Positions 3,257-38,006 of a stretch of DNA of 42,404 nucleotides are shown here, piece by piece. Made by a program: the position numbers and the translations under genes. This DNA is from a virus: the IMG/VR virus record IMGVR_UViG_3300051212_000114, positions 1-42,404 of that record; one strand, 5' to 3'. The notes beneath the pieces were generated by a model. That model was given only the letters and a program-made list of their open reading frames with translations, had not been told where the DNA came from and ran no database searches. Positions within the stretch are counted from its first letter, which is position 1; every line of letters starts with the position of its first letter.

Positions 3257-5923
3257 TCAAAACTCAAAAAGACTGTTAAATGTATTCTTTTCTTCTGTAC
3301 TGGTAATGTCCCAGTTAAGAACACCAATTAAGTTATCTAACTTGTTATCAATAATAGTCTGCTCCATTTCTGCATGATCAAATGGCAGGTCTTTAAACCA
3401 TTGTGGCAGTCTTAATTCGTCAACTGGATATGCTACTGATGTAAATCCTAACGGATTAGGTTTAAGTTTACAGACAATTACTTTAGCACCGTCTGTAATG
3501 TTCATTGAGTATTTGTCTCCAAACATACGTTTGAGAGTATTCCAGTTAATACTAGCACGAACGTGTCCTGGCATATTTGCCTTACCTTGTTTGGCTTCTT
3601 TGGCCTGATACTCGGTAATGTTGTTAGCACGTTTAGGACTACCTTTTTCCCAACCGGGACGTCCTTTAAATTTAATTCTAAATTCGCTAATGTAGTCTAG
3701 TACTTCTTGTTCGCTAGATCCAGTTAGCACACGTTCAAGTACATCACTTAAAAAGTCTTGAATGAATTCTGGAGTGTCACTGCGCTTGAGATCTAAACCC
3801 ATGGCCTTGATCTTGCCCGGCTTACCTTCTACATCTGTACGTTTGCCTTCTTTATCATAATAAAGAACAGCATATCGCTTTTTAGTAATGAACAAGGCCT
3901 TTGATCCAACAATTTCACGACCTGCTTTGATAACTTCGCCACGGGTCTTAGGTACGTGGAATGCATCTAACATAAACTGAGGAAACGTTGTGTTAACTTC
4001 TTCACCTATTTGATCATATAGACCAACAACAGTTTCTTTAGTCCAAGGGATAGATCCTTTTTCAATATCCTGTTTAAGTGTTGAGTAAGCAGTAAAATAA
4101 CAACTGTCAGTGTCACCGTAGATAATAGCTCGTCCAACGTGATTATATTCGCCAGCAATGATTTCGTTTACTTTACTAGCCATGTGTTTGGCAATGCTAC
4201 GACCAGTTAGTGTAGTACTTTGACCAATTCTATTGTCAAAGAAACGACAACCGGGGTTAAGAATAGCACCGTACAAACTATTTAGGTTAATCTTTTTAAC
4301 CAACTGTCGTTTGTCCCAGTACTCTTCTTCTACTTTATTACCTGCTTTGATACATTCTTTAAGTTTGGCCTGCATCTCTTTACGTTCAGCATACCACCGC
4401 TTTAACAGTCCAGGAATGATTCCTTCTTTTTCATATGTAAAGATAGTACCATTGGCTGAAATCATCCAAGGTTGGTTACTGTCAAAGATTAACTTGTATA
4501 CTTCTGCGGCACTTAGCACATCGTTAGATCCGTCTTCCCAGTCTATGGCAATTTCTGTTCCAATTTCTTGATTCATTATTGCAGTATATTCTAGCGAACC
4601 AAATACACCTTCCCAAGCGGCAGCAAATGATTTGCCCTTGGCCATTTGACTTTCGATAAATTCTTTAGTCATTGTTGGACGTAGCTGTCCAATAATTGTC
4701 TCTGGACCCATGTTAAGGGCACGAATTGCTGAAGGATACAGTGAGTTAATATCTAATGAACCAACCCAGTCTTGTAACCCTTCTTTAGGATAGGCAACAT
4801 ACGCACCAGCGGCCTGCTCGTTTTCTCTTTCGCTCATTTTTGGTCTGTTAGGAACAACCATGTTTCTACGATGTGCTTCGTTAATAATAGCCTGTTCAGT
4901 AACGGCCACAGCACCCATAGTTGTTTGTAGCAGTACTGTGTTTTCATGAGCCAGTGTATTGGCAAGATCTAAAAATTTAAGTTTTTTATCTAGTTTGTCT
5001 AATAGCGCACAGTCTTGTCTGTTATATTCAATGAATGTTTTAAAATCATGATTGTATAATTGATCAAGACTGCCTTCATACGGTGTCTTTCTTTCGTTTA
5101 ATTCGTATTCGGCAATGGCGTCTAGTCTATAACTATGACGCTCTTCATAGGTATATTTTCGATACAGCTCTAAACTGTCTAAATGTACACGACCAATAAA
5201 ATCAAATGTAACACTTTCTCTACCAAACTTTTCGTATTCACGCTTTTTAGGATATTGATTCCACAGACAGAATCTACGTGTATCATCTTTGCTTAATACT
5301 TTAGCAACACGGTTAACGGTATAGGGAACGTCAAAGCCCTCACTGTTCCATCCACTAAGGATATCAGCATCTTCAATAAGAGTTAAAAATGTATTAAGTA
5401 GTTCTGCTTCTGTTTTAAACAGAATAGTATTAGGAAAGTCTTTGATCTGCTCCTGTGCTTGTTCCATAGTAAGAGTCTTTGGAGGAACTGCAAGGCAGAT
5501 TAACGTATCTAACCATTGTAAGTGTACAGCAATAGCAGTGATAGGCATGAACGCATCGTCCGGGCTTGCATAGCCGCGTTCTGGATCAAAGTCTACCTCA
5601 ATATCAAAGAAAGCAACATTAAGTTTTGGTGCGTCTTGATTTAGATAGTGTTCACTTAGACAGACAAATATTGGATTAATGTCAGCTTCATAAATTTCTT
5701 TATGACTGTTGATTTTTAGTTCTTTGTGGAAGTCTTTGGTGTTTTTACAAACTACTCGAGTAACTGGATCACCGTATATAGATGTCTGTTTTCCCTTTGG
5801 ATCTTTGTAGTAGAAGGTGTGTTTAACAGGATGCTCTTTATATTCCCGCTCACCTTTTTTATTTCGTTCAACAATTTTGATGATGTCTTCATCTCTGTTG
5901 AACCATGCGTCAACGTAACTCAA
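3257..5923 (-). CDS. gp43: Family B DNA polymerase (T4 gp43-like)
   Basis: The replicative polymerase, 888 residues from a TTG start at 5923. That TTG is chosen because AGGAGA at 5931-5936 lies seven bases upstream; the longer frame has no such site. The 3'-5' exonuclease motifs are complete: FFDIEVDFD (105-113), GWNSEGFDVPY (191-201) and YNRQDCALLDK (300-310). Polymerase motifs A (SLDINSLYPS, 389-398), B (KINLNSLYGA, 544-553) and C (YGDTDS, 602-607) are all intact, so both activities are expected. It would work with the gp45 clamp and gp44 loader encoded in this window. It is transcribed with the DsbA-like gene and a membrane protein from a sigma70-type promoter at 6567-6595. Confidence 0.97.
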   Translation of the reverse strand: MSYVDAWFNRDEDIIKIVERNKKGEREYKEHPVKHTFYYKDPKGKQTSIYGDPVTRVVCKNTKDFHKELKINSHKEIYEADINPIFVCLSEHYLNQDAPKLNVAFFDIEVDFDPERGYASPDDAFMPITAIAVHLQWLDTLICLAVPPKTLTMEQAQEQIKDFPNTILFKTEAELLNTFLTLIEDADILSGWNSEGFDVPYTVNRVAKVLSKDDTRRFCLWNQYPKKREYEKFGRESVTFDFIGRVHLDSLELYRKYTYEERHSYRLDAIAEYELNERKTPYEGSLDQLYNHDFKTFIEYNRQDCALLDKLDKKLKFLDLANTLAHENTVLLQTTMGAVAVTEQAIINEAHRRNMVVPNRPKMSERENEQAAGAYVAYPKEGLQDWVGSLDINSLYPSAIRALNMGPETIIGQLRPTMTKEFIESQMAKGKSFAAAWEGVFGSLEYTAIMNQEIGTEIAIDWEDGSNDVLSAAEVYKLIFDSNQPWMISANGTIFTYEKEGIIPGLLKRWYAERKEMQAKLKECIKAGNKVEEEYWDKRQLVKKINLNSLYGAILNPGCRFFDNRIGQSTTLTGRSIAKHMASKVNEIIAGEYNHVGRAIIYGDTDSCYFTAYSTLKQDIEKGSIPWTKETVVGLYDQIGEEVNTTFPQFMLDAFHVPKTRGEVIKAGREIVGSKALFITKKRYAVLYYDKEGKRTDVEGKPGKIKAMGLDLKRSDTPEFIQDFLSDVLERVLTGSSEQEVLDYISEFRIKFKGRPGWEKGSPKRANNITEYQAKEAKQGKANMPGHVRASINWNTLKRMFGDKYSMNITDGAKVIVCKLKPNPLGFTSVAYPVDELRLPQWFKDLPFDHAEMEQTIIDNKLDNLIGVLNWDITSTEEKNTFNSLFEF

Positions 5924-5995
5924 ATTTTTATCTCCTATGCAATTTACGGCTTGCAAATACCAAACTTGTCACTTGTGGCTGACTAAACCTTACTG

Positions 5996-6289
5996 TTATG
6001 TACTAATTATCAATCTAGTAATGGCAATTACATCAATAGTGACTAGCAACAGATAATTAGCAACCATTCCTGTACTTTTGCGTGTCCATGCCGCCCATGC
6101 AAAAATTGCACATTGGGTAATGAATAATGGATACAAAATGAGAAATGGAGGATTAGGTAGAGTTAACCCCATCCATATTGCACATATAATACTCATGAAC
6201 CAAGCAGTGATTTCAAGAACAAATCTTAAAGGCCACTCGTTAAAATCCTGCTTTGCCCAATTATAGCTATTTAAAATAAAACTATTCAT
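5996..6289 (-). CDS. Small membrane protein (97 aa)
   Basis: A 97-residue protein with three likely membrane segments at roughly 25-45, 48-68 and 75-95. A short amphipathic N-terminus rich in Asn and Trp precedes them (SYNWAKQDFNEWPLRF). The loop WTRKSTGMVANY between segments two and three is basic. Its ATG at 6289 overlaps the TAA of the DsbA-like gene (TAATG), with AGGA a few bases before it, so the two are translationally coupled. Similar short membrane proteins occur in T4-like marine phages but no function is known to me. A leader of about 70 bases then precedes gp43. Confidence 0.65.
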   Translation of the reverse strand: MNSFILNSYNWAKQDFNEWPLRFVLEITAWFMSIICAIWMGLTLPNPPFLILYPLFITQCAIFAWAAWTRKSTGMVANYLLLVTIDVIAITRLIIST

Positions 6290-6651: not shown

Positions 6652-8523
6652 TTATTTTGCAGTGGCCTTAAGAGCATCTAATTGAGCCTGTGTAGCTTTT
6701 ACATCATCAGCCATATCTGGATCGTTGGCATATTTGGTAATTAGTTTTTCCATTTCAGCCATTTCGTCTGCGTAATATCTAGTTAGATTTGCTTTAGAAG
6801 CAGTTCTTGCTGGCGCATCAGCTGGTTTAGCCGCATCAGCTGGTTTAGCCGCATCAGCTGGTTTAGCCGCATCAGCTGGTTTACCAGGACCTGATTGTCC
6901 AACACCATCTGCTGCCGCGTTGCCTGCTTGTTGTTTAAAATGGGCCAGTAGTGCTAGATTAGAAGCGGCAGTACCTGCTTTGTATTTGCCTGCACCTAGT
7001 GCCTTATCAACAAACGCTTGATCAAGCCTATTTTGTTTAGTTACACCTAATTTAGCAAGAGCCTGACCAGTTGGACCATCCGCTCCTCCAGTAGTTGCAC
7101 TACCTGCACTAGCGGTAGGTCTTCCTGCCTGTGTAGGATTACCCTGTCTATCAAGTCTTGCCTTTTCTGCGCGATTATATGATCCATCGTCTGTAGGTTT
7201 ATCCTTGTCACCCTGAGAACCTATAACAGCCGCACCAATTGCTGGAGGAATAGTAGCCGCTCCAACTTTTTGAGCTATTTGGCCCGGTGTAGGTCTTGTT
7301 GGAATATCTCTCCAAGGTACATCAGTTATATCATCGGCTGCTCCGCCACCACCTGGTTTAGGTACAACAGCACCTCCGGGTCTTGGTGCTGGAACTCCGC
7401 CACGAACTGCCGGAACACCTGCTTCAATTAACAGTAACTTTTCTCTAATACGACTCATGCTTTCGCTTAAAGAAGTTGGTGCTGTTTCTTCTAGATCACT
7501 GTCTGACGCAACAGGTGGTTTTTTAGTTATGGTTACAAGTTCCTTCATTCTAGCACGATCTTTTTCTTTATCAGTATCTGTTGATGTTATCTTTGGCTGA
7601 TCTTGTACTGGAAAACTCTGTGCTGTACCTGCACCGGCTAACTCGTCTAATGCAGCCTGAGCATCTTGAAGAGCCGCAATAACTTCTGGGTCGTCAATGT
7701 CTGCTAACTCTGCCATAATCTTTCTCATTAAGGCAACTTCATTTTGAAACTTGCCTACAGCAATGGTCATACCGTTGCCAATTGGTTTTTGTACAGTTGG
7801 TCCTGTTCCTAGGGTTACTTTCTCGCTGAGTTCGTAACCAAATTCTTCTTTAACAATTTTACTTAAAGAAAGGTGTAGTGATTCTTTAGTTAATCCTGAC
7901 TTATCCCAGCCCTTAGGTTGAGCAGGCTTTCCTGCTGTTGGATTAGAAGAAGCTCCAGCATTTGGTCTTCCAGATTGGCCAGGTGCACCAGATTGTCCGC
8001 TGTCCTTGGATCTAATCTTTGCTGTTAACTGTTTTAATTGACCTACACGTTTTTTAATAAATTCATTACTGACATTCTGTGCGTTAACTTTAGCAGAATC
8101 TCCCTTGCTGGTTTGAAATTCTTGACTGGCCTTACCGCCACTTAGGAAGTCTGTTAATCCAGCAGGACCCTGTGCATTATTAGGAATTAAACCTGCTTTC
8201 TGTAGAGCAAGAGTATCATCTCTGTTAGGTGGAGCAGTTCTTGGACTGTTTGGTTTAGAATGGAAATCAGCATCACCTTGAGCAATAACAAACTCGCCTT
8301 GGCTGTTCATTAGTCCAGGAAGTCCGTTCTTAGCAGCCAATGCGGCCAGTGCATCGTTGCCAGCTGTGCGTGGATCTAACGTTAGGAATGCTCCCATACC
8401 GCCTGCTTTCTTTTTTGCGGCAGCGGCATCCATTGCCTGTTTTTCTACTGCTTGAACTGACTGCAAAGTTAATGTTGCTTCAGTAATTTGTTCTAATTTA
8501 TTAATGATACTTCTAATATCCAT
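6652..8523 (-). CDS. Low-complexity putative head-internal/structural protein (623 aa)
   Basis: A 623-residue Ala/Gly/Pro/Lys-rich protein, last gene of the cargo operon. It starts MDIRSIINKLEQITEAT, where ITE followed by Ala matches the (I/L)-x-E cleavage consensus of the T4 gp21 prohead protease, as in T4 internal proteins. Disordered segments include GQSGAPGQSGRPNAG near 180 and a run of PADAAK hexapeptides near 550. Between them are short helical parts (VALMRKIMAELADIDDPEVIAALQDAQAALDEL near 265-295; a C-terminal coiled segment YYADEMAEMEKLITKY). A second internal leader-like segment, SLSESMSRIREKLLLIEAG, occurs near 352-370. No enzyme motif is visible. A virion-internal or scaffold-like role is inferred from operon and leader only. 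Confidence 0.7.
   Translation of the reverse strand: MDIRSIINKLEQITEATLTLQSVQAVEKQAMDAAAAKKKAGGMGAFLTLDPRTAGNDALAALAAKNGLPGLMNSQGEFVIAQGDADFHSKPNSPRTAPPNRDDTLALQKAGLIPNNAQGPAGLTDFLSGGKASQEFQTSKGDSAKVNAQNVSNEFIKKRVGQLKQLTAKIRSKDSGQSGAPGQSGRPNAGASSNPTAGKPAQPKGWDKSGLTKESLHLSLSKIVKEEFGYELSEKVTLGTGPTVQKPIGNGMTIAVGKFQNEVALMRKIMAELADIDDPEVIAALQDAQAALDELAGAGTAQSFPVQDQPKITSTDTDKEKDRARMKELVTITKKPPVASDSDLEETAPTSLSESMSRIREKLLLIEAGVPAVRGGVPAPRPGGAVVPKPGGGGAADDITDVPWRDIPTRPTPGQIAQKVGAATIPPAIGAAVIGSQGDKDKPTDDGSYNRAEKARLDRQGNPTQAGRPTASAGSATTGGADGPTGQALAKLGVTKQNRLDQAFVDKALGAGKYKAGTAASNLALLAHFKQQAGNAAADGVGQSGPGKPADAAKPADAAKPADAAKPADAPARTASKANLTRYYADEMAEMEKLITKYANDPDMADDVKATQAQLDALKATAK
6815..6885 (-). repeat. 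18-bp tandem repeat encoding PADAAK
   Basis: Nearly four head-to-tail copies of an 18-bp unit (6815-6832, 6833-6850, 6851-6868, partial from 6869) encode successive Pro-Ala-Asp-Ala-Ala-Lys hexapeptides inside the 623-residue protein. The copies are almost identical at DNA level, which suggests recent slippage expansion of a flexible linker. Confidence 0.9.
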
Positions 8524-8529
8524 TTTATG

Positions 8530-8967
8530 TTATCCTTTGCTACTAGCTCTTAACATCCATGCATGTTTCTTATGAGAATCTAAACGTCCTGCAATAAAAT
8601 CTGCTAGGCCTTGTTCGTTTGCTGAATCTGCTAGATCAAACACTTGTGCTAATAATTCTATAATTTTTGTGTTATCATCCATAAGCTCGGTTATCATTTG
8701 AGCCGCAGGCACAACACCCTGTGGTTCTTCAATTACAGTTAGCTCTTGAAATCGCCCAAGACTCATGGGAGCATAAGAACCTAGAGCACGTAGCTCTTCT
8801 CCAAACTGATCAATGCTGCCATACACTTCTTCGTATATTTTACCAAACAAATCGTGATATTGTAAGAACATTGGTCCTTCAACATTAAAGTGAAAGTAAT
8901 GCGCTTTCATATAAAAGGCAAAACTGCTAGCCATAGCAGTTTTCATTGATTGCTTTAACTCGTCCAT
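8530..8967 (-). CDS. dps: Dps/ferritin-like protein
   Basis: A 145-residue four-helix protein matching the Dps core. H26 and H38 (FHFNVEGP, then QYHDLF) and D53 and E57 (SIDQFGEE) sit at the spacing of the inter-subunit ferroxidase ligands (in E. coli Dps H51, H63, D78 and E82). LGSYAPMSLG and a C-terminal HKKHAWMLRA helix also fit the family. Dps shells oxidise Fe2+ with peroxide, store iron and shield DNA. The Lys-rich DNA-binding tail of E. coli Dps is missing. The gene is coupled by TAATG to the upstream gene in a run of putative head proteins. It could therefore be a virion protein or act in the infected cell; the sequence does not decide. Confidence 0.85.
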   Translation of the reverse strand: MDELKQSMKTAMASSFAFYMKAHYFHFNVEGPMFLQYHDLFGKIYEEVYGSIDQFGEELRALGSYAPMSLGRFQELTVIEEPQGVVPAAQMITELMDDNTKIIELLAQVFDLADSANEQGLADFIAGRLDSHKKHAWMLRASSKG

Positions 8968-9719
8968 TACTCGTCGCCTTCATTTACTGGTACACACTTA
9001 TCTTTGTAAGTTCCGTCTGCTTTTTTAACCTTACCAGCATAACGCTTACCTTTCCAGCAGGCCTTGCCATCTACACCTTTAACTTTTTCTTCCTCTACAT
9101 TTTTTTTAGTAGATGTTATAGGTGTCGCTGGTTTTGCGCCTTGTTCAGGGGGTGTAGATTTTTGTTTCTTTTTTGCTTCCCAATCACTACGCATTTTTTG
9201 ATATTCGGGTTTGTTTAAATCGTATGGTGCAAAATCACCAAGCCCGTTTTTAGATTTTTGTAAAGGAACATCGCTTTCAGCCATGTCCATTGCTTTGTTT
9301 TTATGTTTAACTTCACCCTGTTTTTGAGCTTTCTTTTTGTCCTTATGTGCTCCTGCGGCACCACCTCCTATTGCGGCATTGGCATTTTTAGCCACAGGGT
9401 TACGCGGCTTTGGAGGTTGTTGGCTTTTAACTTCTTGAAGATGCTCGTCAAGTTTGTTTTTTAAATTATCAATTTGATTAATATCTTCTTCTTCAACTAG
9501 TTTTAAATATGTTTTAAACAAACTAGGCGTTTCATCTAGTTTAACAGGCGTAGGCTTTGGTGTATTCATGTACACAATATTTTCAGCCTGTGAAAGACGA
9601 TTGGTTTTTGTGTTCTTACCTTCTGTAACTACCTGTAAAAATTTTTTCATGTCATTAGAACCTTCTACAGGCTTCTCTGAAGCACCGTCTAAGGCCTGTA
9701 GAATTTTCTTCATGTCCAT
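8967..9719 (-). CDS. Mosaic putative virion protein with repeated leader-like peptides (250 aa)
   Basis: A basic, mostly disordered 250-residue protein. The N-terminus holds two related peptides, MKKILQALDG and MKKFLQVVTEG, and a third similar one follows near 67-78 (LFKTYLKLVEEED). Each resembles the T4 capsid-targeting peptide ending in x-x-E. A Gly/Ala-Lys segment follows (AAIGGGAAGAHKDKKKAQK, near 115-133). The C-terminus has a two-cysteine motif, ACWKGKRYAGKVKKADGTYK then CVP, which I recall recurring at ends of structural proteins in marine T4-like phages. No enzyme motif is seen. Position between Dps and the DUF3008 gene supports a head-associated role, by inference. Confidence 0.65.
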   Translation of the reverse strand: MDMKKILQALDGASEKPVEGSNDMKKFLQVVTEGKNTKTNRLSQAENIVYMNTPKPTPVKLDETPSLFKTYLKLVEEEDINQIDNLKNKLDEHLQEVKSQQPPKPRNPVAKNANAAIGGGAAGAHKDKKKAQKQGEVKHKNKAMDMAESDVPLQKSKNGLGDFAPYDLNKPEYQKMRSDWEAKKKQKSTPPEQGAKPATPITSTKKNVEEEKVKGVDGKACWKGKRYAGKVKKADGTYKDKCVPVNEGDE

Positions 9720-9720
9720 T

Positions 9721-11112
9721 TTATAGTCCTGCTAACATTTTTAAATTTGATAGATCCTGACTTTCTTTCATTGCTGGATTTGTTGGCCCAGGTGCCTCCT
9801 GACTCCAACGCTTGCCTTTGTTAGGACCAGATGTAATTACTGGATACTGTCCATCTTTACCTTTTGGTGGTGGAGCTGTTGCACCGTCATCGTTCTGAGG
9901 AACAGTAGTAGGTGCTGCCTTTTTCTTAGTTGCAGGTGCAGTTGAGGCAGCAGTTTCTAACTTTAATTTAGCTTTGGCAATTGCTTCTTTAACCTTGGCT
10001 TTTTTCTCAGGAAGACCTTTGTGCTTGGTGCCGGCAAAGTCTTTGGCGTCTTTGTCTTTCATACCCTTAGCAGCCTTAGCAACTTCTTTGCTGGCTGGCT
10101 TCTCGCCTTTCTTAGCGGCGTGTACCATGCCCATAAATTTTTGTTGTGCTTTGCTAACAGCCTTTTCTGAAACTACTTCTGATTCATACATACCGCCACA
10201 CTCTTTTAGACCATGCACTGGACATTTTTTACCTTTTGGTGAGTGGTTGCATTTTTCATCGGATGCTTCTTTAACTTTGTCTTTCTTAGCACGTAGTTTA
10301 GCAAAATCATCGCCATCTAACTTACCGTTCTTATTAGCATCTAATTTAGCTTGACCGCCTTTTAGGCTCTCGTTAGTTTTCTTACTTACTGCTTTTGATA
10401 CAGCAGTACGTCTCTTCTTTAGGTAGCTGTCAGTCTTATCTTTCTTACCATCATTGTTGATGTCATCATCTTCTTTGCCAACTGGATCTAATTTAGCTTC
10501 ACTGACTTTCTTACCATCTTTTACACGAGTTACAGAACCTTTACCAAAACGTTTTTCCCAAGCCTTGCCTTGTTTTTCTTCTGCTTTGTCAGCGACTTTG
10601 TCACCTGCTTTTTCGGCAGCTGATTTTGACTTAGCCTGACTAGCTGGCTCTGTATGTGGCTCATCTGAGAAACGATCTGGATTTTGTTTGTGACGAGTAA
10701 CACCTTTCTTAGAACGATCAATTTCACCACCAGTTGATGACTTTTCTTCTTTAACAGATTTCTTAGTCATCTTTTCAGCTTGTTTCATTTTAAGCTTCTT
10801 GATAGTTTCTTTGGCTTCTAAGAGTTTGTTCTTTAATTCAGCTTTTTGTTCTTCTGAGTATACATCACTATTTTCTAGTTTTTCACCATACTCTGTAAAT
10901 TTCATTTCATATTCTAGATAGTGATATACGCTGGCAATGTAATCTGCAGCCTTGGTAATTTTGGCTTGAACCCAGCCTTCTAACTGCTGGTTGCCATCTA
11001 GCATTTTAAACAGTTTATAGCTGTAATTGGCTAATTTGTATAAATCAGCTTTAGCCATTGCGCCTTCGTGGTCTGCTGGCATAGCTGATTGTGGTTCGTT
11101 CATATCGTGCAT
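9721..11112 (-). CDS. Modular DUF3008 protein with EF-hand-like loops and Cys/His cluster (463 aa)
   Basis: A Lys-rich 463-residue protein built from several pieces. Residues 22-75 are a helical segment ([19 protein letters not shown], then YHYLEYEM) that I recall as common in marine T4-like phages. Residues 217-228 ([12 protein letters not shown]) and 258-269 ([12 protein letters not shown]) are EF-hand-like calcium loops. Residues 288-305 form a possible zinc knuckle ([18 protein letters not shown]). Residues 318-371 match DUF3008 ([17 protein letters not shown], later [17 protein letters not shown]). It ends NLKMLAGL, echoing DIKRLAGI in the 78-residue gene of this operon. CGGAG precedes the ATG, and a late-type box lies 22 bases upstream. 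Function is unknown; a structural, metal-binding virion protein is plausible. Confidence 0.75.
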
Positions 11113-11134
11113 GGTAAAAAACTCCGTAGTCTTA

Positions 11135-11141
11135 TATTTAG
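11135..11141 (-). promoter_or_regulatory. T4-type late promoter box (CTAAATA)
   Basis: The minus strand reads GCTAAATATAAG ending 22 bases before the ATG at 11112. There is no -35 box, as expected for T4 late promoters (TATAAATA at -10, recognised with the gp55/gp33 system). It overlaps the stop codon of the preceding gene. The same box recurs before five other late genes in the window. Confidence 0.6.
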
Positions 11142-11668
11142 CGTTTGATGCTTCCGCCGGTCATTAGATTATCGCCATCTAGTGCGTTATCTGTAGGTTT
11201 TTGCATTTTAGGGCTATCGTTAGGGTATACTGCGCCTACTGACATATTGCCCGCAGAAGTTGTGCCAGCTGAAGCTGTTTCAGCAACATCATCTTCTGAT
11301 TTTTTCGTTAGAAAAATTTTGCCCTGTAATTCTGGTTTATTTTTAAGAATAGCAAGGGCGTAGTTATTAGCACCGCGTTTCCAGTCAAAGGATTTAGGCT
11401 CGCCTTTGCTCTTTAAAATTTTACCGTTAATCTTTAAGTACCAAGGTCCGCGATCTCTGTCAATTTGTTGTTGACGGAAATTGCGTTCAAAGTTTGGATC
11501 GTCTTCGTGGCCTAATTCGTGTTGTAGCTCTTGACGTTTAAACTCTCGCTTGTCGTAGTCCATTTGACGTTGTTGATCACGCTCATAATCCATAGGGTTA
11601 TAATAACTGCTTCTTCTACGTCCGTACATTTCTGTCATATTTTCTTGTAAAATTTCAAATGCTTTCAT
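11138..11668 (-). CDS. Putative head-internal protein with capsid-targeting-like leader (176 aa)
   Basis: A 176-residue protein starting [19 protein letters not shown], a leader with L-Q-E and M-T-E steps that resembles the gp21-cleaved peptide of T4 internal proteins. Residues 25-70 are highly charged and Gln/Arg-rich ([20 protein letters not shown]). Residues about 75-125 form the only compact-looking domain, [18 protein letters not shown] with [14 protein letters not shown], a segment I recall from other T4-like phage proteins. The C-terminus is Ser/Ala/Gly/Thr-rich and ends LMTGGSIKR. No catalytic residues are evident. It follows the 78-residue gene with a one-base gap. Confidence 0.65.
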
Positions 11669-11669
11669 G

Positions 11670-11906
11670 TCATTTCCTTATTCCAGGTCCAATTGGTTTT
11701 TCTCCTGTAAGTTTAGGTAAACTAAACCAAAGTTGAAACCATTCTGGTGTACCAGGTTTTATATTATGTTTTTTCTGTAGCTCACCTTTTTCATTGCCAG
11801 TGAGGCTAATATTACTACCGCCGTATGGATCAACAGGATCGTATTTTAAATATCCCTTAAACTCGTTAATGCCTGCTAGTCGTTTAATATCTTCTAATTC
11901 TGACAT
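11670..11906 (-). CDS. Small conserved phage protein (78 aa)
   Basis: A 78-residue protein beginning MSELEDIKRLAGINEFKGY. The DIKRLAGI segment recurs in the C-terminus of the 463-residue protein of this operon, and I-N-E fits a gp21-type cleavage step. The rest is polar with Pro/Gly turns (DPVDPYGGSNISLTGNEKGE, PGTPEWFQLWFSLPKL). Its ATG overlaps the TAA of the nucleotidyltransferase gene (TAATG), so expression is coupled to it. I do not know a function. Confidence 0.6.
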   Translation of the reverse strand: MSELEDIKRLAGINEFKGYLKYDPVDPYGGSNISLTGNEKGELQKKHNIKPGTPEWFQLWFSLPKLTGEKPIGPGIRK

Positions 11907-13186
11907 TATACACCATACTTATTTTTTTTACGCTTTGGAACTGGACTAGTTTTATTTGTACTGTCTAATTCTTGACTTCGGTTATCACCGCGGTTTAAAT
12001 CTTTATGTTTAGCACCCACTGCCTTATATGCTTTTTTAAGCATTTGGGATTCTGCATCAGTATACGGATGTGTTGATTTCCATTTACCAATCCAACTAGA
12101 TTGATCAATTTCTGGATCGTTAGTACCGTCTGTTCCTGCAACGGCCATACCAAGTCGATACATGGTATAATCGCTGTTCCATCTATCACCGTCAGTGACT
12201 AAGTGCATACCTCTAGTTGGCTTATGCTGTCTCTTAGTTAACTTTGCCTGTTTAGCTTCAGACATAATAGCATCTTCAATCTCGTCAAATGCTTCTTTGA
12301 CAAGACCAAATGCTTTTAAATTTTTATATGGAGTTGATGCATTAACATCAGCAGTGGTATTTTGTTTTGTGATAGTACCAACACCTGCTGCCTCTTCGTT
12401 CTTTGCTGTTTTAGCAGCCTTGGCAGCTTTTCTAGCCATCGAAGCTAGTATTTGATCTTTATAAGGTAAGAGATATTTTGCCACAAGGTCAAAGAATGGT
12501 TCTCCCATTACTGGAGTTTCACTGCTAACACCTGCGGCTTGCGTGAATTTTTTTCTATTACCTTCTAAGACTGCGGCTCGTAAGTCAGTAGCTGAACTAA
12601 CTCTGTCAGCTTTACGCCATTCAATCTCTTTAAAGTTATAATATCCGTGTCTTCCTTCTTTACCGTTTTCTTTTTGTATACCTGGAACATAAACCAATTT
12701 GTCTTTTTCGTCAGTAACAATGTATAATTTTACAGGACCGTGCTTTTTGTACACGTAAGTAGCTAAAGTCCACCATGTCTGTTCACTGACCACGTGACCC
12801 TCAACCCCGCCCCATATAGCTTTCATACATTCAACTTTAACATCAAAAGGCAGCGGGTCTGTAGGGCCAATAGTTGCTTGATTTGTTCCCACATACCACG
12901 TAGGGCTTTGCGACGCGGCAATCCATGCGCCTTTGTGTCCAACATGTGGCGGATTAAAACGACCAAATATAATAGCAACTTCTTGGTCAGATTCTTTTTC
13001 TTTTTCTTTTGCCTGCGCCTTAACACCTGCACTTATTTTTGCTCCTACTCTTTGTCCAAGACTTTGAGTAGCAGGAGCGGCCTTGGCAATATCGTCTCCG
13101 GCTTTTGCAACATCGTCAACAGATCGAGCACCAAGTTTTCCTAATGCTAGACTTGCCTCTGTTGTAAAAAATTCTCTTAGTTTCAT
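11906..13186 (-). CDS. HxGH-type nucleotidyltransferase with phage C-terminal domain
   Basis: A 426-residue protein from the ATG at 13186, two bases past the previous stop and preceded by AGGAAA; a longer frame to 13210 lacks such support. The leader MKLREFFTTEAS resembles the T4 capsid-targeting peptide. An Ala/Lys linker follows to about residue 65. Then comes a cytidylyltransferase-like Rossmann domain: IIFGRFNPPHVGH (HxGH motif, roughly 70-82) and SSATDLR near 195-201, the ISSTxxR motif of NMN/pantetheine-phosphate adenylyltransferases. Such enzymes transfer a nucleotide from NTP with release of pyrophosphate; the substrate here is unknown. The final ~110 residues (KRQHKPTRGMHL, MAVAGTDGTNDPEID, SSWIGKWKSTHPYT) are a separate module I recall from marine phages. 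Confidence 0.8.
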   Translation of the reverse strand: MKLREFFTTEASLALGKLGARSVDDVAKAGDDIAKAAPATQSLGQRVGAKISAGVKAQAKEKEKESDQEVAIIFGRFNPPHVGHKGAWIAASQSPTWYVGTNQATIGPTDPLPFDVKVECMKAIWGGVEGHVVSEQTWWTLATYVYKKHGPVKLYIVTDEKDKLVYVPGIQKENGKEGRHGYYNFKEIEWRKADRVSSATDLRAAVLEGNRKKFTQAAGVSSETPVMGEPFFDLVAKYLLPYKDQILASMARKAAKAAKTAKNEEAAGVGTITKQNTTADVNASTPYKNLKAFGLVKEAFDEIEDAIMSEAKQAKLTKRQHKPTRGMHLVTDGDRWNSDYTMYRLGMAVAGTDGTNDPEIDQSSWIGKWKSTHPYTDAESQMLKKAYKAVGAKHKDLNRGDNRSQELDSTNKTSPVPKRKKNKYGV

Positions 13187-13188
13187 AA

Positions 13189-14421
13189 TTAATTTCCTGC
13201 CGGCACCCATGTAGTTGGAACAAGTTTAATTTTTCCAAATTTATGATGTTTCTGTGGATATCTAACATGACCTTCTCCGTTAGTATCCCATATTTCTCTG
13301 CGAGGCTGTTGTTTAATAGCGGCATCGTATGCATCTTTCATATTTCTTATTTCTTTTATAAGATAAAAAATAGCATCTAGTCCTCCGGGGTGTTCTTGAA
13401 CCATATTAATAATATGACGTTGCTTGGGTTCACTAATACCTTTCTTTTTCATCCATTCAACAAAATCATGACCAGAGAGCTCTGCAAAGTCTCTAGCCCC
13501 TGTAGCATGTTCTTTACTCATTTGATTAAAGAAAGGATAAAAGACACCGTTCTTATCTGCATTAGGCAACGAGTCTAAGAACGCATCAACAGCAGGACCG
13601 TACTGATCAGCATATTGAATAGCTTCTTCAATTTCATCAAGGACGGATTGATCTACTTCTGGAGCAGTTTCTGTATAGATAGGACCTTGAACGATTAATC
13701 CAGGAGTCCCGTTAAACATTTCAAAATCATCTAACGGTTCTTGAGCAGACTCGTCCATACCAAACTCTGGGTAATAAGCATGACCAACTACCATAACTTT
13801 TGCTTGAGCTATTCTTTTTCCTAACTCGCTGCCTGCATCAACGTGATAACAGGTTTTGCTTCTTGGGTTTGGACAGAATGTAAAAATACCGTTAGGATAT
13901 TCAGCTCCACCGTCGTCTAATCTTTTGTTTAGTGCAGGGTCTACGCCATATAATGAGTCTGCATATACAAAGCCAACAAAGTCTTTTGGGGTTGCGGCAT
14001 CAAATAGTGGATATAAGTTTGCAAAGTTTTGTGCAAATGATTGTCGAGCCTTTTGTTGCTCCGGTGTGCCTGGTTTTCCGCTTTGGTTAGCAATGAAGTC
14101 TTTTACTGCGGCAGGACTGTCTGTCTTAACACCTCTACCCCAACCGTTATGACCTGCTAGTATCAGTGGTCCGCCTTTAGTTTCTCTACCCCAATAGACC
14201 TGAGGATTCCCGTCCCACTTTCGACGAAGTGTTGTTGCACCTGGTTTTTCTTCAACTATTTCTTTAAAATGGTTAAGTGCTTCAAGAGTTCCCTTATGAC
14301 CTTTAAAGAAAACAAAGTGTTCTGGATGGTTAAACGGACGTCCGTATTCATCCATGCTGTCAATGTCAACATTTTTTTGTTTCTTAGCTTCTGTAAAAGC
14401 AAATAGTTCTCTTAGTAACAT
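13189..14421 (-). CDS. DUF6267-like protein with ligase-type KxDG motif (410 aa)
   Basis: A 410-residue protein beginning MLLRELFAFTEAKKQK, again a leader resembling the T4 capsid-targeting peptide with a T-E/A step. Residues 31-110 (HPEHFVFFKGHKGTLEALNH, later RRKWDGNPQVYWGRE) match proteins annotated DUF6267 in T4-like phages. K68-W69-D70-G71 has the form of motif I (KxDG) of the ATP-dependent ligase and capping nucleotidyltransferase superfamily. GFVYADSLYG around 145-160 could be motif III and GLIVQGP near 245 motif IV. If real, a nucleotidyl-lysine intermediate and end-joining or repair chemistry would follow, but this is inference from short motifs. It is coupled by TAATG to the gene before it and lies two bases before the nucleotidyltransferase gene. 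Confidence 0.7.
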   Translation of the reverse strand: MLLRELFAFTEAKKQKNVDIDSMDEYGRPFNHPEHFVFFKGHKGTLEALNHFKEIVEEKPGATTLRRKWDGNPQVYWGRETKGGPLILAGHNGWGRGVKTDSPAAVKDFIANQSGKPGTPEQQKARQSFAQNFANLYPLFDAATPKDFVGFVYADSLYGVDPALNKRLDDGGAEYPNGIFTFCPNPRSKTCYHVDAGSELGKRIAQAKVMVVGHAYYPEFGMDESAQEPLDDFEMFNGTPGLIVQGPIYTETAPEVDQSVLDEIEEAIQYADQYGPAVDAFLDSLPNADKNGVFYPFFNQMSKEHATGARDFAELSGHDFVEWMKKKGISEPKQRHIINMVQEHPGGLDAIFYLIKEIRNMKDAYDAAIKQQPRREIWDTNGEGHVRYPQKHHKFGKIKLVPTTWVPAGN

Positions 14422-14774
14422 TATTTTTTATTAGATCTATATTCTTCTGTACATTGTTTAAAAAGCTCTAAGCATACTTTTTCGTGTACATCGTGTGGCA
14501 ACGTTTCTGGTAACTTTCTTATAGGAAACTCTTTAGTGTATGATTTGTAAGCTTCGTGAACAGCACCTCCAAACAACATACGGTCAGCTTTGCCGTGTTG
14601 AAGAGAATGCTTATGCTTGACTAGTTGTGGATAAACATGGCGACGATATACATCATCGTTGTTTTTCATATAAAACAACAGATCGTCCGAGATGTCAAAC
14701 CCTAGATCTTCGTCTTTTTTATTGTTAAAATGCAGATCTATATCAATATTTTCTACTAGTTCTCTAATTCGCAT
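14421..14774 (-). CDS. Conserved T4-like phage protein (117 aa)
   Basis: First gene of the late cargo operon. The 117-residue protein starts MRIRELVENIDIDLHF, related to the leaders of downstream genes. Its body (DDLLFYMKNNDDVYRRHVYP, later AYKSYTKEFPIRKLPETLP) matches a small protein I recall from many marine T4-like phages, of unknown function. It is rich in Asp, Lys and His with a helical C-terminal half (DVHEKVCLELFKQCTEEY). A late-type ATAAATA box lies 39 bases upstream, and the gene overlaps the next as TAATG. A virion or head-assembly role is inferred from context. Confidence 0.7.
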   Translation of the reverse strand: MRIRELVENIDIDLHFNNKKDEDLGFDISDDLLFYMKNNDDVYRRHVYPQLVKHKHSLQHGKADRMLFGGAVHEAYKSYTKEFPIRKLPETLPHDVHEKVCLELFKQCTEEYRSNKK

Positions 14775-14813: not shown

Positions 14814-14820
14814 TATTTAT
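14814..14820 (-). promoter_or_regulatory. T4-type late promoter box (ATAAATA)
   Basis: The minus strand reads GATAAATACAC in the 70-base gap before the ATG at 14774. It differs from the T4 late consensus TATAAATA only in its first base and has no -35 element. It would drive the 14774-to-6652 operon as a late unit. Confidence 0.65.
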
Positions 14821-14844
14821 CTTAGGGTTTGATCTACGACTAAA

Positions 14845-15459
14845 CTAATTTTTAACAATAGTTTCTATCTTGTTGATACAGCCGCCCAGCATCATCTTAG
14901 CCATCATTAGCTGTTTTTCGCCCTTGACATAGAAGTAACTGCCGCCCCAACTTAACGGACGTAACAGTTCTTGCTTACAGCTATTTGTAAGTTTAATTTT
15001 ACTGTTAGTCTCTGCCCACTCTACAAAATTATCCTGTCGTTTGTTACTTTTGCCCAGGGTGACTCTGTAGTCAAAGTTAATTTTAGGCATTATGATAGTA
15101 CCCTCTTCTATGGGCTTACTAGGGGCACTGGTATATTTTACTCGTGTAGTATCGAGTTTAACTAACATATCTATATCTTGAGAAGAATTTGTATAGAAAC
15201 TTATAAAAGGATTCTCAACTCTAAGATCAAAGTCAGACATTTTTAGTATAGTCTTTGCTAACTTTAGGCAATAATCAAAATCCTCTATGGTTTTTATTTT
15301 ATTATATGGATTTTTACCTACACCAATACCGCTTTCTTTGATCTTATCAATAGCGTAATTAAAATTCTTACCTCTAAAAAACTGAGCAGCCGGACATACC
15401 AGTACTGCTTTGTACTGGTATTTTCCTTGAAACAGTCTTCTAGTTTGCTTGACTAACAT
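14845..15459 (-). CDS. Conserved T4-like phage protein of unknown function (204 aa)
   Basis: A 204-residue, basic, alpha/beta-looking protein. The N-terminus RRLFQGKYQYKAVLVCPAAQ, the middle LRVENPFISFYTN and the end WGGSYFYVKGEKQLMMAKMM follow the pattern of a protein I recall in many marine T4-like phages, where it has no assigned function. It starts inside the clpA 3' end with a 20-base overlap, so it is translated from the dnaJ-clpA message. No catalytic motif is certain. The conserved basic residues and the company of ClpA suggest an early or middle intracellular role rather than a virion part, but this is weak inference. Confidence 0.65.
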   Translation of the reverse strand: MLVKQTRRLFQGKYQYKAVLVCPAAQFFRGKNFNYAIDKIKESGIGVGKNPYNKIKTIEDFDYCLKLAKTILKMSDFDLRVENPFISFYTNSSQDIDMLVKLDTTRVKYTSAPSKPIEEGTIIMPKINFDYRVTLGKSNKRQDNFVEWAETNSKIKLTNSCKQELLRPLSWGGSYFYVKGEKQLMMAKMMLGGCINKIETIVKN

Positions 15460-17710
15460 TTTCTAGTGTACTTGCGGCAATTAAAGGAACTTTTATAGTT
15501 TTTCCTCTAGCTGATAAAAATAGTTTATCATCAGATACAGTAATAGTCAACCATCCACCGTTCTTAAGATCGCCAAACAACATCATCTTAGCAAGGTCAC
15601 GCTTAATTTCCTTGTCAATAACACGTTGTAGAGGACGGGCACCCATCTTAGCATCAAAACCTTTTTCAATTAACCACTCAATGGCATCTTTGTCTATTTT
15701 GATTCTTACTGCTTTATCTTTGACCTGTTCTCTCAGTTCGTCAATGAATTTAGTAACAATCTTAGTCATAGTGGCTTTTTCGAGTTTAGTAAACGTGATA
15801 ATACCATCTAATCTATTACGGAATTCAGGAGTAAAGAACTTCTTAAGATCTGTATCGGAATAATCCTTTTCTTGTTTACCAAATCCAATGTTGTTCTTTT
15901 CAGCTGACTGGGCACCTGCATTAGTAGTTAGAATCAACAACAGATTTCTACAATCGGCCTGTTTTCCGTTAGAGCCTGTAACAAACCCGTTATCCATCAT
16001 TTGAAGTAATACAGTTGTTACATCTGGATGTGACTTTTCAACTTCGTCAAACAGCAGTACAGCATTTGGGTGTTCTTGAATCTGAGTAATCAATTGACCA
16101 GCATTTTCTTCAAACCCAACATATCCTGGAGGACTACCAATCAACTTACTAATACTATGTTTCTCTTGATATTCACTCATATCAAATCTTAATAGCTTAA
16201 CACCAAGATGTTTGGCCAGTGATTTAGCAGTTTCAGTCTTACCACATCCAGTTGGACCCATAAACACAAAACTACCAACTGGTTTATTTTCTGGCTTTAG
16301 ACCTGCTCGAGCAACAATGATCTTATCTACTACTTCTTGAATAGCTAGATCTTGTCCAAATACCTCATCTTGTAGTCTAGGTTGTAGTGTGGCAAGGCCT
16401 TCACTTTCTTGTTCGGCAACTACTTCTTCAGGAATCTGCACCATCCTTGATAATTCAAATTCAATTTCTTTAGCGCCAATCACACGCTCGTCTGCTAGTT
16501 TTAAATTAAATCTAGAACATGCACAGTCAATTAAATCGATAGCTTTGTCGGGTAGTTTTTTATCTGCTTGATAACGAACGCTTAATTTAATTGATGCTTG
16601 CAATGCCTCTTCTTTAATTTTAACATTATGATGCTGTTCATAATATTTTTTAATGCCTTTAAGAATCTGCAGAGTCATTTCTGGTGTTGGCTCGTCAACA
16701 GTGATGCGTTGGAAGCGACGCATTAGAGCACGATCCTTTTCAAAGTGCTTGCGATATTCTTCCCAGGTAGTTGATGCAACAACCTTAATGTTGCCTTTAC
16801 TAAGTGCAGGTTTCATCATGTTAGCAAGGTCATTGGCTGAATTACTTGCTGAGCCTGCACCACTGATCATATGTGCTTCGTCAATGAACAAAACAGTTTT
16901 GCCTTTTTTACTGAGACCTTTTAGTACTGCTTTAAATCTTTCTTCAAAGTCACCTCGGTACTTACTACCTGCAAGCATAGCAGAGATGTCTAAGTTATAA
17001 ACTGTGTAGTCCTTGAGGAAGTCTGGAACAGCACCCTTAACAATATTATAGGCAAGTCCTTCTGCTATAGCAGTCTTACCTACACCAGGATCTCCTACGA
17101 GGATAACGTTATTTTTACTGCGACGACCTAAGGCTAGGGCAATGTTTTCTAATTCATCAATGCGACCAATAACTGGATCAATGCTACCTTTCTTGACACT
17201 GTCGTTCAAGTTAGTAGTAAATGCCTTCAATGCCTTGTTGCCAGCTTGATCAGGCAATTCTTCTTCTTCGGGGCCTTCTGAAGAATTGTTTAGGTAGTCT
17301 GCAAATTTATCTTTATCGATTCCTGCTTGCTGGATATAAAAATATGCCCAGGATCTTTTTTCACCAATGATTGATAAAAACACATCAGCAGGCTCAATAC
17401 GCTGCCGCCCGTTAAACAATACCTGTGTAAATGCACGATTAAGCACACGCTCAACACTTTGAGTTTTCTTTGGTTTAACTACAACATCGGGGACTGTAAT
17501 TTCAGCACACTTATTTTTTAAGTAGTGTTCAAGATTTTTCTTTATATATTCTGGATCACTTCCGTAACCTTGTAGACAGTTAGAAAAGGATTCCTCACAG
17601 AGCATGGCAAACAACAGATGTTCTATTGTTAGATACTCATGCCGTAACTGTCTAGCTGTTTCGATAGCCTTTTCAAAAACTGCTTGTAGGTTATCACTTG
17701 GTTCTACCAT
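15440..17710 (-). CDS. clpA: ClpA-like AAA+ unfoldase (ATP-dependent Clp protease ATP-binding subunit)
   Basis: A full-length ClpA: 756 residues against 758 in E. coli. An N-terminal Clp_N domain (1-140) is followed by two AAA+ modules. D1 has Walker A GDPGVGKT (206-213) and Walker B LFIDEAH (274-280). D2 has Walker A GPTGCGKT (485-492), Walker B LLFDEVEK (552-559) and the conserved FTPEFRNRLD (626-635). There is no ClpB middle domain. The loop NNIGFG (606-611) carries the IGF/IGL tripeptide that docks ClpA and ClpX on ClpP, so it could use host ClpP to redirect proteolysis. AAGGAA precedes the ATG, and dnaJ ends nine bases upstream. The two genes form an early operon from the consensus promoter at 18612-18640. 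Confidence 0.95.
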   Translation of the reverse strand: MVEPSDNLQAVFEKAIETARQLRHEYLTIEHLLFAMLCEESFSNCLQGYGSDPEYIKKNLEHYLKNKCAEITVPDVVVKPKKTQSVERVLNRAFTQVLFNGRQRIEPADVFLSIIGEKRSWAYFYIQQAGIDKDKFADYLNNSSEGPEEEELPDQAGNKALKAFTTNLNDSVKKGSIDPVIGRIDELENIALALGRRSKNNVILVGDPGVGKTAIAEGLAYNIVKGAVPDFLKDYTVYNLDISAMLAGSKYRGDFEERFKAVLKGLSKKGKTVLFIDEAHMISGAGSASNSANDLANMMKPALSKGNIKVVASTTWEEYRKHFEKDRALMRRFQRITVDEPTPEMTLQILKGIKKYYEQHHNVKIKEEALQASIKLSVRYQADKKLPDKAIDLIDCACSRFNLKLADERVIGAKEIEFELSRMVQIPEEVVAEQESEGLATLQPRLQDEVFGQDLAIQEVVDKIIVARAGLKPENKPVGSFVFMGPTGCGKTETAKSLAKHLGVKLLRFDMSEYQEKHSISKLIGSPPGYVGFEENAGQLITQIQEHPNAVLLFDEVEKSHPDVTTVLLQMMDNGFVTGSNGKQADCRNLLLILTTNAGAQSAEKNNIGFGKQEKDYSDTDLKKFFTPEFRNRLDGIITFTKLEKATMTKIVTKFIDELREQVKDKAVRIKIDKDAIEWLIEKGFDAKMGARPLQRVIDKEIKRDLAKMMLFGDLKNGGWLTITVSDDKLFLSARGKTIKVPLIAASTLENVSQAN

Positions 17711-17719
17711 ATCATTCCT

Positions 17720-18580
17720 TTATTTTCTATTAATTTCGTGATCAATAAGTTTTAATTTTTCAATTAATGCAGGGTCTTTAATTTCTGGAGTTTTAATTCT
17801 AATTTCAGCAACTAAGCGTCCTCGTATGGTGTTGTTAACATTAGTAAATCCATAACCGGTAACAGCGTATTCAACTCCTGTTTCAACACCTGGTCTTACA
17901 TCAATTGCAATATTTTGTCCATTAATTGATGAAACAGTTTTTCTACAACCAATCATTGCTTCAATTGGACTTATGTCTAAATGTGTGTACAGATCATTGC
18001 CCTCTCTTCTATATTTTGGATCTGGCATGACTAGTATTGTAACATTTAAATCTCCTCTTTGCAACTGAGGATGGCTGTCGTCACCGAGCCCTTGGTATCT
18101 AATTGTAGCACCGTGTTCAATTCCGGGCGGAACATTGATAATGACACTTTGTAATCTTCCGCTGGGCAGTGCGTAACTTGCTTCTAATTGTTTACCAGTA
18201 AAACTATCTAACAGTGTTATTTGGCATTGTATATTTAGATCTCTGTTTTTTCTTACACGTTGCCGTCCAAAAATATCTGCAAACGGGTGTTGACCTCCAA
18301 ATGGAGGAACTCCGCCAAACATGTCTGCAAAATCAGCAAAACCATCACTAGATGTAAATCTGAATTGACTGCCGCCACCGCCTCTACGCATTTGATCGTA
18401 TTCACTGCGTTTTTGTTGATCGCTTAGGGTAGCATAGGCATTTTGAATTTCTTTAAATTTTGAATCGTCGCCACCGGTTCTATCAGGATGATATTTCATA
18501 GCCAAGCTTCGATATGCCTGCTTGATTTCATCTTGGCTAGCACCAGAATCAACTCCTAAAATTTGGTATAAGTCTGACAT
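17720..18580 (-). CDS. dnaJ: DnaJ/CbpA-like co-chaperone (type II, no zinc finger)
   Basis: A 286-residue J-domain protein. The J domain (residues 3-65) has [22 protein letters not shown] with the HPD tripeptide needed to stimulate the DnaK ATPase, and a helix IV ending SEYDQMR. A Gly/Phe-rich linker (66-105, [20 protein letters not shown]) follows, then two C-terminal beta domains ([16 protein letters not shown], later [28 protein letters not shown]). The CxxCxGxG zinc-finger domain of type I DnaJ is absent, as in CbpA. It would deliver substrates to host DnaK. Next to ClpA and with a GroES-like gene elsewhere in the window, it forms a phage protein-quality-control set. Confidence 0.93.
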
Positions 18581-20039: not shown

Positions 20040-20046
20040 TATTTAT
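20040..20046 (-). promoter_or_regulatory. T4-type late promoter box (ATAAATA)
   Basis: Minus strand AATAAATACTAG, with the box 23 bases before the ATG at 20016 and a GGAGTGATC ribosome-site region in between. It overlaps the stop of the radical SAM gene. No -35 box is present. Confidence 0.6.
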
Positions 20047-37583: not shown

Positions 37584-37590
37584 TATTTAC
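37584..37590 (-). promoter_or_regulatory. T4-type late promoter box (GTAAATA)
   Basis: Minus strand GGTAAATATACAA, 18 bases before the ATG at 37565 and overlapping the TAA stop of the preceding gene. The box differs from TATAAATA in its first two positions. No -35 box. Confidence 0.5.
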
Positions 37591-38006
37591 CAACTTCTGC
37601 AACTCCAGTATCGAGCCTTCCAACGTGGCCCCGGATTATCGCAGTTATGTCTTGCACGGAATGATTTTCTACGTGCAGGGTTACTTTTCTTAATACGCAT
37701 CTTTTTATCACCAAAGTTTACTTTGACAATATTACCGTTGGGCTTTCGTACATATACTTTTGATTTTTTAACATCGCCTGGCAGTTTTTTACCTAAAGGC
37801 ACGTTCTTACCTTGATATTCGGCTTCGTCTAACTGGAAGTTAGCTAAATGGCTCAATCCTACAGCATCTATGCCTACCACAACGCCGTCTTCTGTAAATC
37901 CTAGTATACCTGTTTCAAGGACAATGTTGTCTAATTCAATGTCAAAACTGTCCCCAATTTCAGGTTGTTCAGCTAATTTAGATAAAATAAATTCTTTGTA
38001 TCTCAT
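37587..38006 (-). CDS. DUF5872-like conserved phage protein with capsid-targeting-like leader (139 aa)
   Basis: A 139-residue protein. It starts MRYKEFILSKLAEQPEIG, where L-A-E/Q resembles a gp21-type cleavage step and MRYKEF echoes MKTYQEF of T4 internal protein III. The basic, highly conserved C-terminus (KKMRIKKSNPARRKSFRARH, then NCDNPGPRWKARYWSC) is the DUF5872-type module I recall across T4-like phages. Two Cys and the His could bind metal, and its basic charge suggests contact with DNA or a protein shell. The gene follows the large fibre gene by one base. Function unknown. Confidence 0.75.
   Translation of the reverse strand: MRYKEFILSKLAEQPEIGDSFDIELDNIVLETGILGFTEDGVVVGIDAVGLSHLANFQLDEAEYQGKNVPLGKKLPGDVKKSKVYVRKPNGNIVKVNFGDKKMRIKKSNPARRKSFRARHNCDNPGPRWKARYWSCRSW

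Follow-up and report, generated by a model that had tools for sequence, protein, structure and literature searches.

An operon with short amphipathic leaders

Several neighbouring genes in the virus record IMGVR_UViG_3300051212_000114 start with similar short peptides, which raises the question of whether they encode proteins that are carried inside the phage head. The whole record (42,404 nt, a genome fragment) was analysed and is referred to here as the window. Nine genes on the minus strand, running from 14774 to 6652, form one block (Table 1), and most carry leaders that are short, amphipathic and end in hydrophobic-x-Glu, the pattern of capsid targeting and gp21 cleavage in phage T4. This block is likely to be a late operon of capsid-targeted internal head proteins, which would work like the T4 internal protein (IP) system, with mature proteins that are not T4 IP homologues as judged by profile searches. 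All seven start peptides listed in the initial annotation are encoded at the positions given for them, with two corrections; six are inside the block and the seventh is at 37587–38006. That list missed the leader of 11670–11906 and the C-terminal tag of 9721–11112, and the propeptide that it gave for 8967–9719 is probably too short.

The nearest relatives of the window are uncultured viral contigs. A DUF6267-like protein, product of the second operon gene, is encoded in 204 stretches, the best 80 of which were fetched as relatives. One of these, G001 (161 kb), has the same operon. It also encodes gp23, the major capsid protein (PF07068), a portal of T4 type (PF07230) and a gp21 homologue (Peptidase_S77; 45201–45829; L081), the sole prohead protease found in the group. 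The virus is T4-like, and our impression is that this phage group is of freshwater origin.

Table 1 Positions of operon genes and associated features in the window (slash, putative cleavage site).
Feature	Position	Strand	Leader or tag	Basis
Late-promoter-like element GATAAATA	14814–14821	-		47 bp upstream of first operon gene (A117)
A117, small helical protein	14421–14774	-	MRIRELVE/N (14751–14774)	start peptide MRIRELVENID
DUF6267-like protein, conserved RRKWDGNP, start MLLRELFAFTEA	13189–14421	-	MLLRELFAFTE/A (14389–14421)	Pfam DUF6267, 2.5e-12
HxGH nucleotidyltransferase (cytidylyltransferase/NMNAT-like) with C-terminal domain	11906–13186	-	MKLREFFTTE/A (13157–13186)	PHROG cytidyltransferase, 3.7e-14
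78-aa protein	11670–11906	-	MSELEDIKRLAGINE/F (11862–11906)	leaders of relatives
176-aa protein	11138–11668	-	N-terminal (11642–11668)	relatives MKIxDLLGE/G, MKVLEILSE/M
463-aa modular protein, DUF3008 and EF-hand-like segment	9721–11112	-	C-terminal (9724–9771)	conserved C-termini
250-aa protein	8967–9719	-	propeptide ending VTE/G, start 9719 (33 aa) or 9650 (10 aa)	VTE/G or VNE/G at same place in relatives
Dps/ferritin-like protein	8530–8967	-	none	Pfam Ferritin, 1.9e-20
623-aa protein, start MDIRSIINKLEQITEA	6652–8523	-	MDIRSIINKLEQITE/A (8479–8523)	relatives' leaders end INE/A, ISE/A, LFE/A
139-aa protein outside operon, start MRYKEFILSKLAEQ (tentative member)	37587–38006	-	MRYKEFILSKLAE/Q	

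Conservation of the leaders

Among distinct orthologues, hydrophobic-x-Glu is found at positions 7–12 in 100% of A117 proteins, 97% of DUF6267-like proteins, 95% of nucleotidyltransferases and 79% of the 11138–11668 family; the figure is 15% over all genes and 0% for Dps. Residue P3 of the site is strictly L/I in A117 and in most nucleotidyltransferases. A short N-terminal propeptide (about 7–20 residues) is thus common to unrelated operon proteins, the exceptions being the 463-aa protein and Dps, and in both predicted structures (A117 and DUF6267-like) the leader is of low confidence or detached from the confident fold.

A117 reads MRIxELLE in relatives, and M1, R2, L6 and E8 do not vary across 49 aligned sequences; its predicted structure has a short helix at residues 4–8, low confidence at 9–25 and a helical domain thereafter, for which a fold search matched uncharacterised viral proteins only. 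Cleavage mainly after LRE-5 was rejected, as position 5 varies (E/D/Q) and E8 does not. Of 86 relatives of the DUF6267-like protein (47.3 bits; Pfam cut-off 27), 85 have the leader and one is truncated at a contig edge, and most of the 85 start [MV]LLRELFxxE-A/S/G, followed by a linker of variable length and a conserved body; residues 1–17 of the predicted structure have a predicted local distance difference test (pLDDT) score <50. For the nucleotidyltransferase the longest open reading frame is 11906–13210, and the leader MKLREFFTTEA begins at the second ATG (13186), eight codons downstream. M[KRN]LR[EQ] is present in 75 of 81 relatives, and a further five begin this leader at a codon other than ATG. 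Identity is 81% in this leader (55 distinct sequences), 27% in the linker and 54% where the body begins; the leader and an FGRxNP motif are 7 to 102 residues apart.

In one relative (L044) the C-terminal-type domain of the nucleotidyltransferase is a separate gene with its own leader, MRAKDFIVE. The DUF6267 leader is itself unevenly distributed, being present in the window group and, as an N-terminal extension (MLTLINFSKYITE), in Methylophilales phage Melnitz, and lacking from P-HM2 and S-SZBM1. Together these cases indicate that the leaders are modular.

The remaining N-terminal leaders are more diverse. Many relatives of the 78-aa protein start MDExxxLKKLAGINE/F and others diverge. In the 250-aa protein MKKFLQVVTEG, the start recognised initially, begins at an internal ATG (residue 24) downstream of a 23-residue extension, MDMKKILQALDGASEKPVEG. 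This extension has counterparts in G001, G002, G003 and G005, so that the real propeptide is probably the 33 residues ending VTE/G, as judged from sequence comparison. The 139-aa protein at 37587–38006, which an A117 matrix places fifth among 46 and in which 77 residues are 44% identical to a stretch of the nucleotidyltransferase protein of Melnitz, is tentatively put in the tagged set.

Enrichment of leaders in the operon

Leader matrices were applied to simple gene calls, with alternative starts permitted equally for all genes. The window operon outscored the remaining genes when scored by a matrix made from A117 relatives without A117 itself (p=0.0016, area under the curve (AUC) 0.82) and with one built from T4 IPI–III only (p=0.0067, AUC 0.78), bearing out both the genome-wide enrichment and the likeness to the T4 leader suggested in the initial annotation. 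The A117-family matrix also picked out the operon in G001 (p=0.011). In Melnitz (217 proteins), with a matrix from T4 IPI–III plus two cyanophage nucleotidyltransferases, operon genes rank 1, 2, 4, 6 and 11, the operon is the best-scoring run of eight genes, and the prohead protease comes 10th. The resemblance of the leaders is real and exceeds chance. T4 Alt alone failed as a matrix to find the operon, and likeness to its start (MELITELF) was not used as evidence; a regular expression summarising the tags was composed after the operon had been seen and was not used as a test.

A late-promoter-like element

GATAAATA lies 32–65 bp upstream of the gene in 60 of 60 distinct relatives of A117; ATAAATA occurs within 90 bp of 12% of all genes. 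In G001, 11 of 12 GATAAATA sites closely precede gene starts, a count that averages 1.65 for permuted 8-mers (maximum 5). The T4 late promoter is TATAAATA, which was considered as the operon element and rejected, being absent from the window, where GATAAATA fits instead. The resemblance of GATAAATA to TATAAATA suggests that the operon is probably transcribed together with virion genes. GATAAATA is apparently a common late-promoter core in the window and in G001–G005, beside or replacing TATAAATA.

Related proteins in virions

Purified virions of cyanophage S-SM1 contain the cytidylyltransferase T4-GC190 (Sullivan et al. 2010, PMC3037559), and the same type of nucleotidyltransferase was detected by mass spectrometry (MS) in virions of S-CREM2 (PMC10665884), S-SZBM1 (PMC9146016) and S-SCSM1 (PMC9602691). 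The S-SM1 enzyme starts MKKFSAFLNEA, compared with MKTYQEFIAEA in T4 IPII and IPIII, and M[KRN]x[FYL]xx[FY][LIVM]xE fits the start of every one of the 80 marine relatives fetched with the S-SM2 enzyme; the residue preceding Glu varies, as expected for an L-x-E site. In S-SCSM1 the nicotinamide mononucleotide adenylyltransferase (NMNAT) is the central member of five consecutive genes (ORFs 89–93) annotated in the record as virion proteins. Several MS-detected S-CREM2 proteins have such a leader: S-adenosylmethionine (SAM) hydrolase (MKDFDSFLEE), gp13 (MKDLHSFLTE), a kinase (VKRFDAFLTE) and the nucleotidyltransferase (MKNFSSFLTEA); a Cas9-like protein has a leader-like LRFASFMAEA ~17 residues in. 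With the T4-IP-only matrix, six of the top eight of 219 S-CREM2 proteins are MS-detected (Fisher p=0.0026).

Enzymes in virions of T4-like cyanophages have thus already been reported, and the idea of cargo is not wholly new. The proteomes list NMNAT-like enzymes, SAM hydrolase, kinase and Cas9-like nuclease and leave cargo versus contamination undecided; a targeting leader was not found mentioned in those passages of the papers that were searched. A recognisable, putatively protease-removable tag on several virion enzymes makes this question testable.

Proposed role of the tagged proteins

In the proposed scheme, the amphipathic helix (N-terminal in most, C-terminal in the 463-aa protein) would dock each protein on the prohead scaffold core, and the gp21 prohead protease would cut at hydrophobic-x-Glu during head maturation, removing the tag and freeing the mature protein inside. 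The freed proteins would be kept with the DNA in the head and pass into the host on infection.

Two operon proteins look like folded enzymes, and two enzyme-like proteins were noticed initially. The nucleotidyltransferase has HxGH and SSxTxLR-type motifs (FGRFNPPHVGHKGAW and VSSATDLRAAV) and no Pfam match; it would be part of the cargo as an NMNAT/cytidylyltransferase-type enzyme, along with the DUF6267-like protein encoded by its conserved partner gene. Cyanophage and Melnitz members match DUF6267 with E as low as 1e-124. Used as queries against cultured phages, the window and G001 copies of this protein gave no match, whereas that of Melnitz retrieved 410 records, most of them from cyanophages; a literature search on DUF6267 found nothing. 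An ATP-dependent ligase was considered and rejected: the KWDG motif is the only likeness, and neither fold nor sequence searches of the PDB turned up a ligase. As a guess, a nucleotide, whether NAD or another, might be the target of the pair at an early stage of infection.

Tag-like helices at either end and likeness to scaffold

An N-terminal leader is lacking in the 463-aa protein and in its relatives. Instead, a conserved helix, such as R[MLI]Kx[LF]xxxLxG, ends the protein behind hydrophobic-x-E then S/N (VKE, IAE, LAE and LNE are the commonest sites among 26 distinct C-termini). Residues 318–371 (the DUF3008 segment) are 78% identical to S-SCSM1 ORF93 and residues 202–247 are 60% identical to S-SCSM1 ORF92, both virion proteins by record annotation. 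Some short DUF3008 proteins of viral contigs end K[ST][LF]KEF[LIM], and in marine relatives the T4-IP-like KTFKEFL is at the C-terminus of small DUF3008 proteins, including S-SCSM1 ORF93.

The helix xLxxIKxLAGx is N-terminal in the 78-aa protein, with INE/F after it, and C-terminal, mirrored, in the 463-aa protein, with hydrophobic-x-E/S before it. It resembles the C-terminus of the G001 protein in the scaffold position, IDIRKLAGLKI. The head proteins of G001 themselves have similar ends (scaffold-position protein, MLDALKQLFE/N; protease, ...SFNE/AK), beside cargo leaders such as MRLRELFE/N there and LFFNE/AK in relatives. Given this similar helix at both ends and its likeness to scaffold, cargo tags would be scaffold mimics, functional from either end and removed by the protease at either end, a reading that we put forward tentatively, as somewhat short of an even chance. 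Cargo leaders covary strictly with the N-terminus of the scaffold in T4 and G001 but not in S-SM1, Melnitz or S-CREM2, so that such covariation is only suggestive.

Further candidates were noticed. In G005 the 3665–4813 protein has the leader MRIKEIISEE and also ends WLSRLKKLAGFEN, and may be tagged at both ends. Virion-detected, Cas9-like S-CREM2 gp12 (L122, 7704–10313) has KTFRDFLN at its very end. Other G001 leaders are MKILDIVHKEQINE (52105–53286), MKSFKEYLIE (5549–6160) and MILRELF (46760–46999).

Comparison with known systems

T4 IPI, IPII, IPIII and Alt (PMC9026906) have the same short amphipathic N-terminal propeptide and hydrophobic-x-Glu site; the gp21 family is represented in the group by the G001 gene, split in its assembly. 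The C-terminus of Alt is also processed by gp21 (PMC9026906), as would be the C-terminal tag here. No Pfam or PHROG family of the mature T4 proteins was matched in the operon. Here, in contrast, about eight tagged proteins are encoded in one operon, one with a clear C-terminal tag, and leaders are of the form MKLRELFE/MRIRELLE rather than MKTYQEFIAE.

The cyanophage T4-GC190 enzyme (S-SM1, S-CREM2, S-SZBM1, S-SCSM1) shares a homologous nucleotidyltransferase domain, an N-terminal leader, virion association and, in several cyanophages, an adjoining DUF6267 gene as in the window, whereas the window enzyme has another leader type and another C-terminal domain. The Melnitz operon (MZ577097, 12203–19789) includes the same pair, with neighbours starting MQGFKTFLSEA, MKKFSELTSE and MKKFSEIIEA; it differs in that leaders are of T4-IP type, an NT5C-like nucleotidase is included and the genes are annotated as hypothetical. 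Head-packaged ejection proteins of the jumbo phages SPN3US and phiKZ (PMC5694885) are likewise cut after Glu by the prohead protease, but their propeptides are mostly long, with an A-x-E site in SPN3US.

The operon would widen a strategy known from Alt and three small proteins of T4 to a set that includes enzymes and has one member tagged at the C-terminus. It would also make the injected proteins of uncultured T4-like phages predictable from sequence and supply new sequences with which to load phage heads with proteins.

Evidence against and alternative explanations

Several observations weigh against a head-packaged set. No gp21-type protease gene was found on the 42-kb fragment, and the homologue that the check suggested initially turned up in G001, which has the same operon, is split over two reading frames in the assembly (an error or a real frameshift). 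P3 is often aromatic in DUF6267-like proteins and is Thr in the window nucleotidyltransferase, compared with L/I in T4, and the T4-IP matrix alone is not significant in G001 (p=0.089). Dps is an untagged gene within the operon (hydrophobic-x-Glu in none of 40 distinct relatives) and is probably not a tagged cargo protein; it lies inside the cargo operon in many relatives, elsewhere within it in G001. The virion MS support comes from other phages, not this one or its near relatives, and CsCl-purified particles may hold contaminants, according to the proteome authors. In S-CREM2 the top match, gp83, was not detected by MS (AUC 0.72), and S-SCSM1 ORF90 and ORF92 and S-CREM2 gp156, gp174 and gp176 are virion-detected with no obvious leader, so that by this measure the tag is neither necessary nor sufficient. 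The head-packaged set first proposed is supported by the enrichment and by virion-found relatives of one protein and of segments of another, and is modified for Dps, for the 463-aa protein, tagged at the C- and not the N-terminus, and for 37587–38006, which lies outside the operon.

Of the alternatives, docking of the operon products in a single cytoplasmic complex through their leaders, rather than head targeting, survives best and is still improbable. The leaders are mutually alike within the phage group, the DUF6267 and nucleotidyltransferase genes are conserved neighbours in cyanophages and Melnitz, and a fusion may be represented by a predicted S-PM2 protein that is annotated as cytidyltransferase-like and matches 424 columns of the DUF6267 model. 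Such a complex leaves unexplained the conserved Glu site, the T4-IP form of the leader in marine relatives, virion detection, the similar ends of G001 scaffold and protease and the same leader on unlinked virion enzymes of S-CREM2.

Marginally less probable again is that these are ordinary non-virion enzymes, detected in virions of relatives through contamination, which the authors of two of the proteome papers were unable to exclude, and that their leaders are common Met-Lys-rich amphipathic phage starts. Such starts would not account for Melnitz, where none of 974 internal-Met 11-mers scored at least 8 compared with 1.8% of true N-termini, nor for the Dps of the same operon having no leader, the late-promoter-like element or the absence of such a leader from the undetected S-CREM2 neighbours inspected.

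The least likely alternative is that the proteins serve the scaffold or core as accessory factors, as T4 gp67/gp68 do, and are cut up in maturation with no host role, since, for all that a 79-aa protein in the G001 head module starts likewise (MILRELF) and several operon proteins look low-complexity and modular, two members look like folded enzymes and the nucleotidyltransferase persists in mature virions of relatives.

Other genes in the window

Outside the putative cargo operon, 15440–18580 encodes a ClpA-like ATPase, about 40–44% identical to ClpA-like proteins of large phages, and is adjoined by a DnaJ-like gene. A possible radical SAM protein (20043–21581) has a CxxxCxxC motif recognised by eye, and a subtilisin-like protein (31546–34182) in the tail-fibre region has, also by eye, the motifs GSHSTHVAGTAAG and NGTSMASPQVCG.

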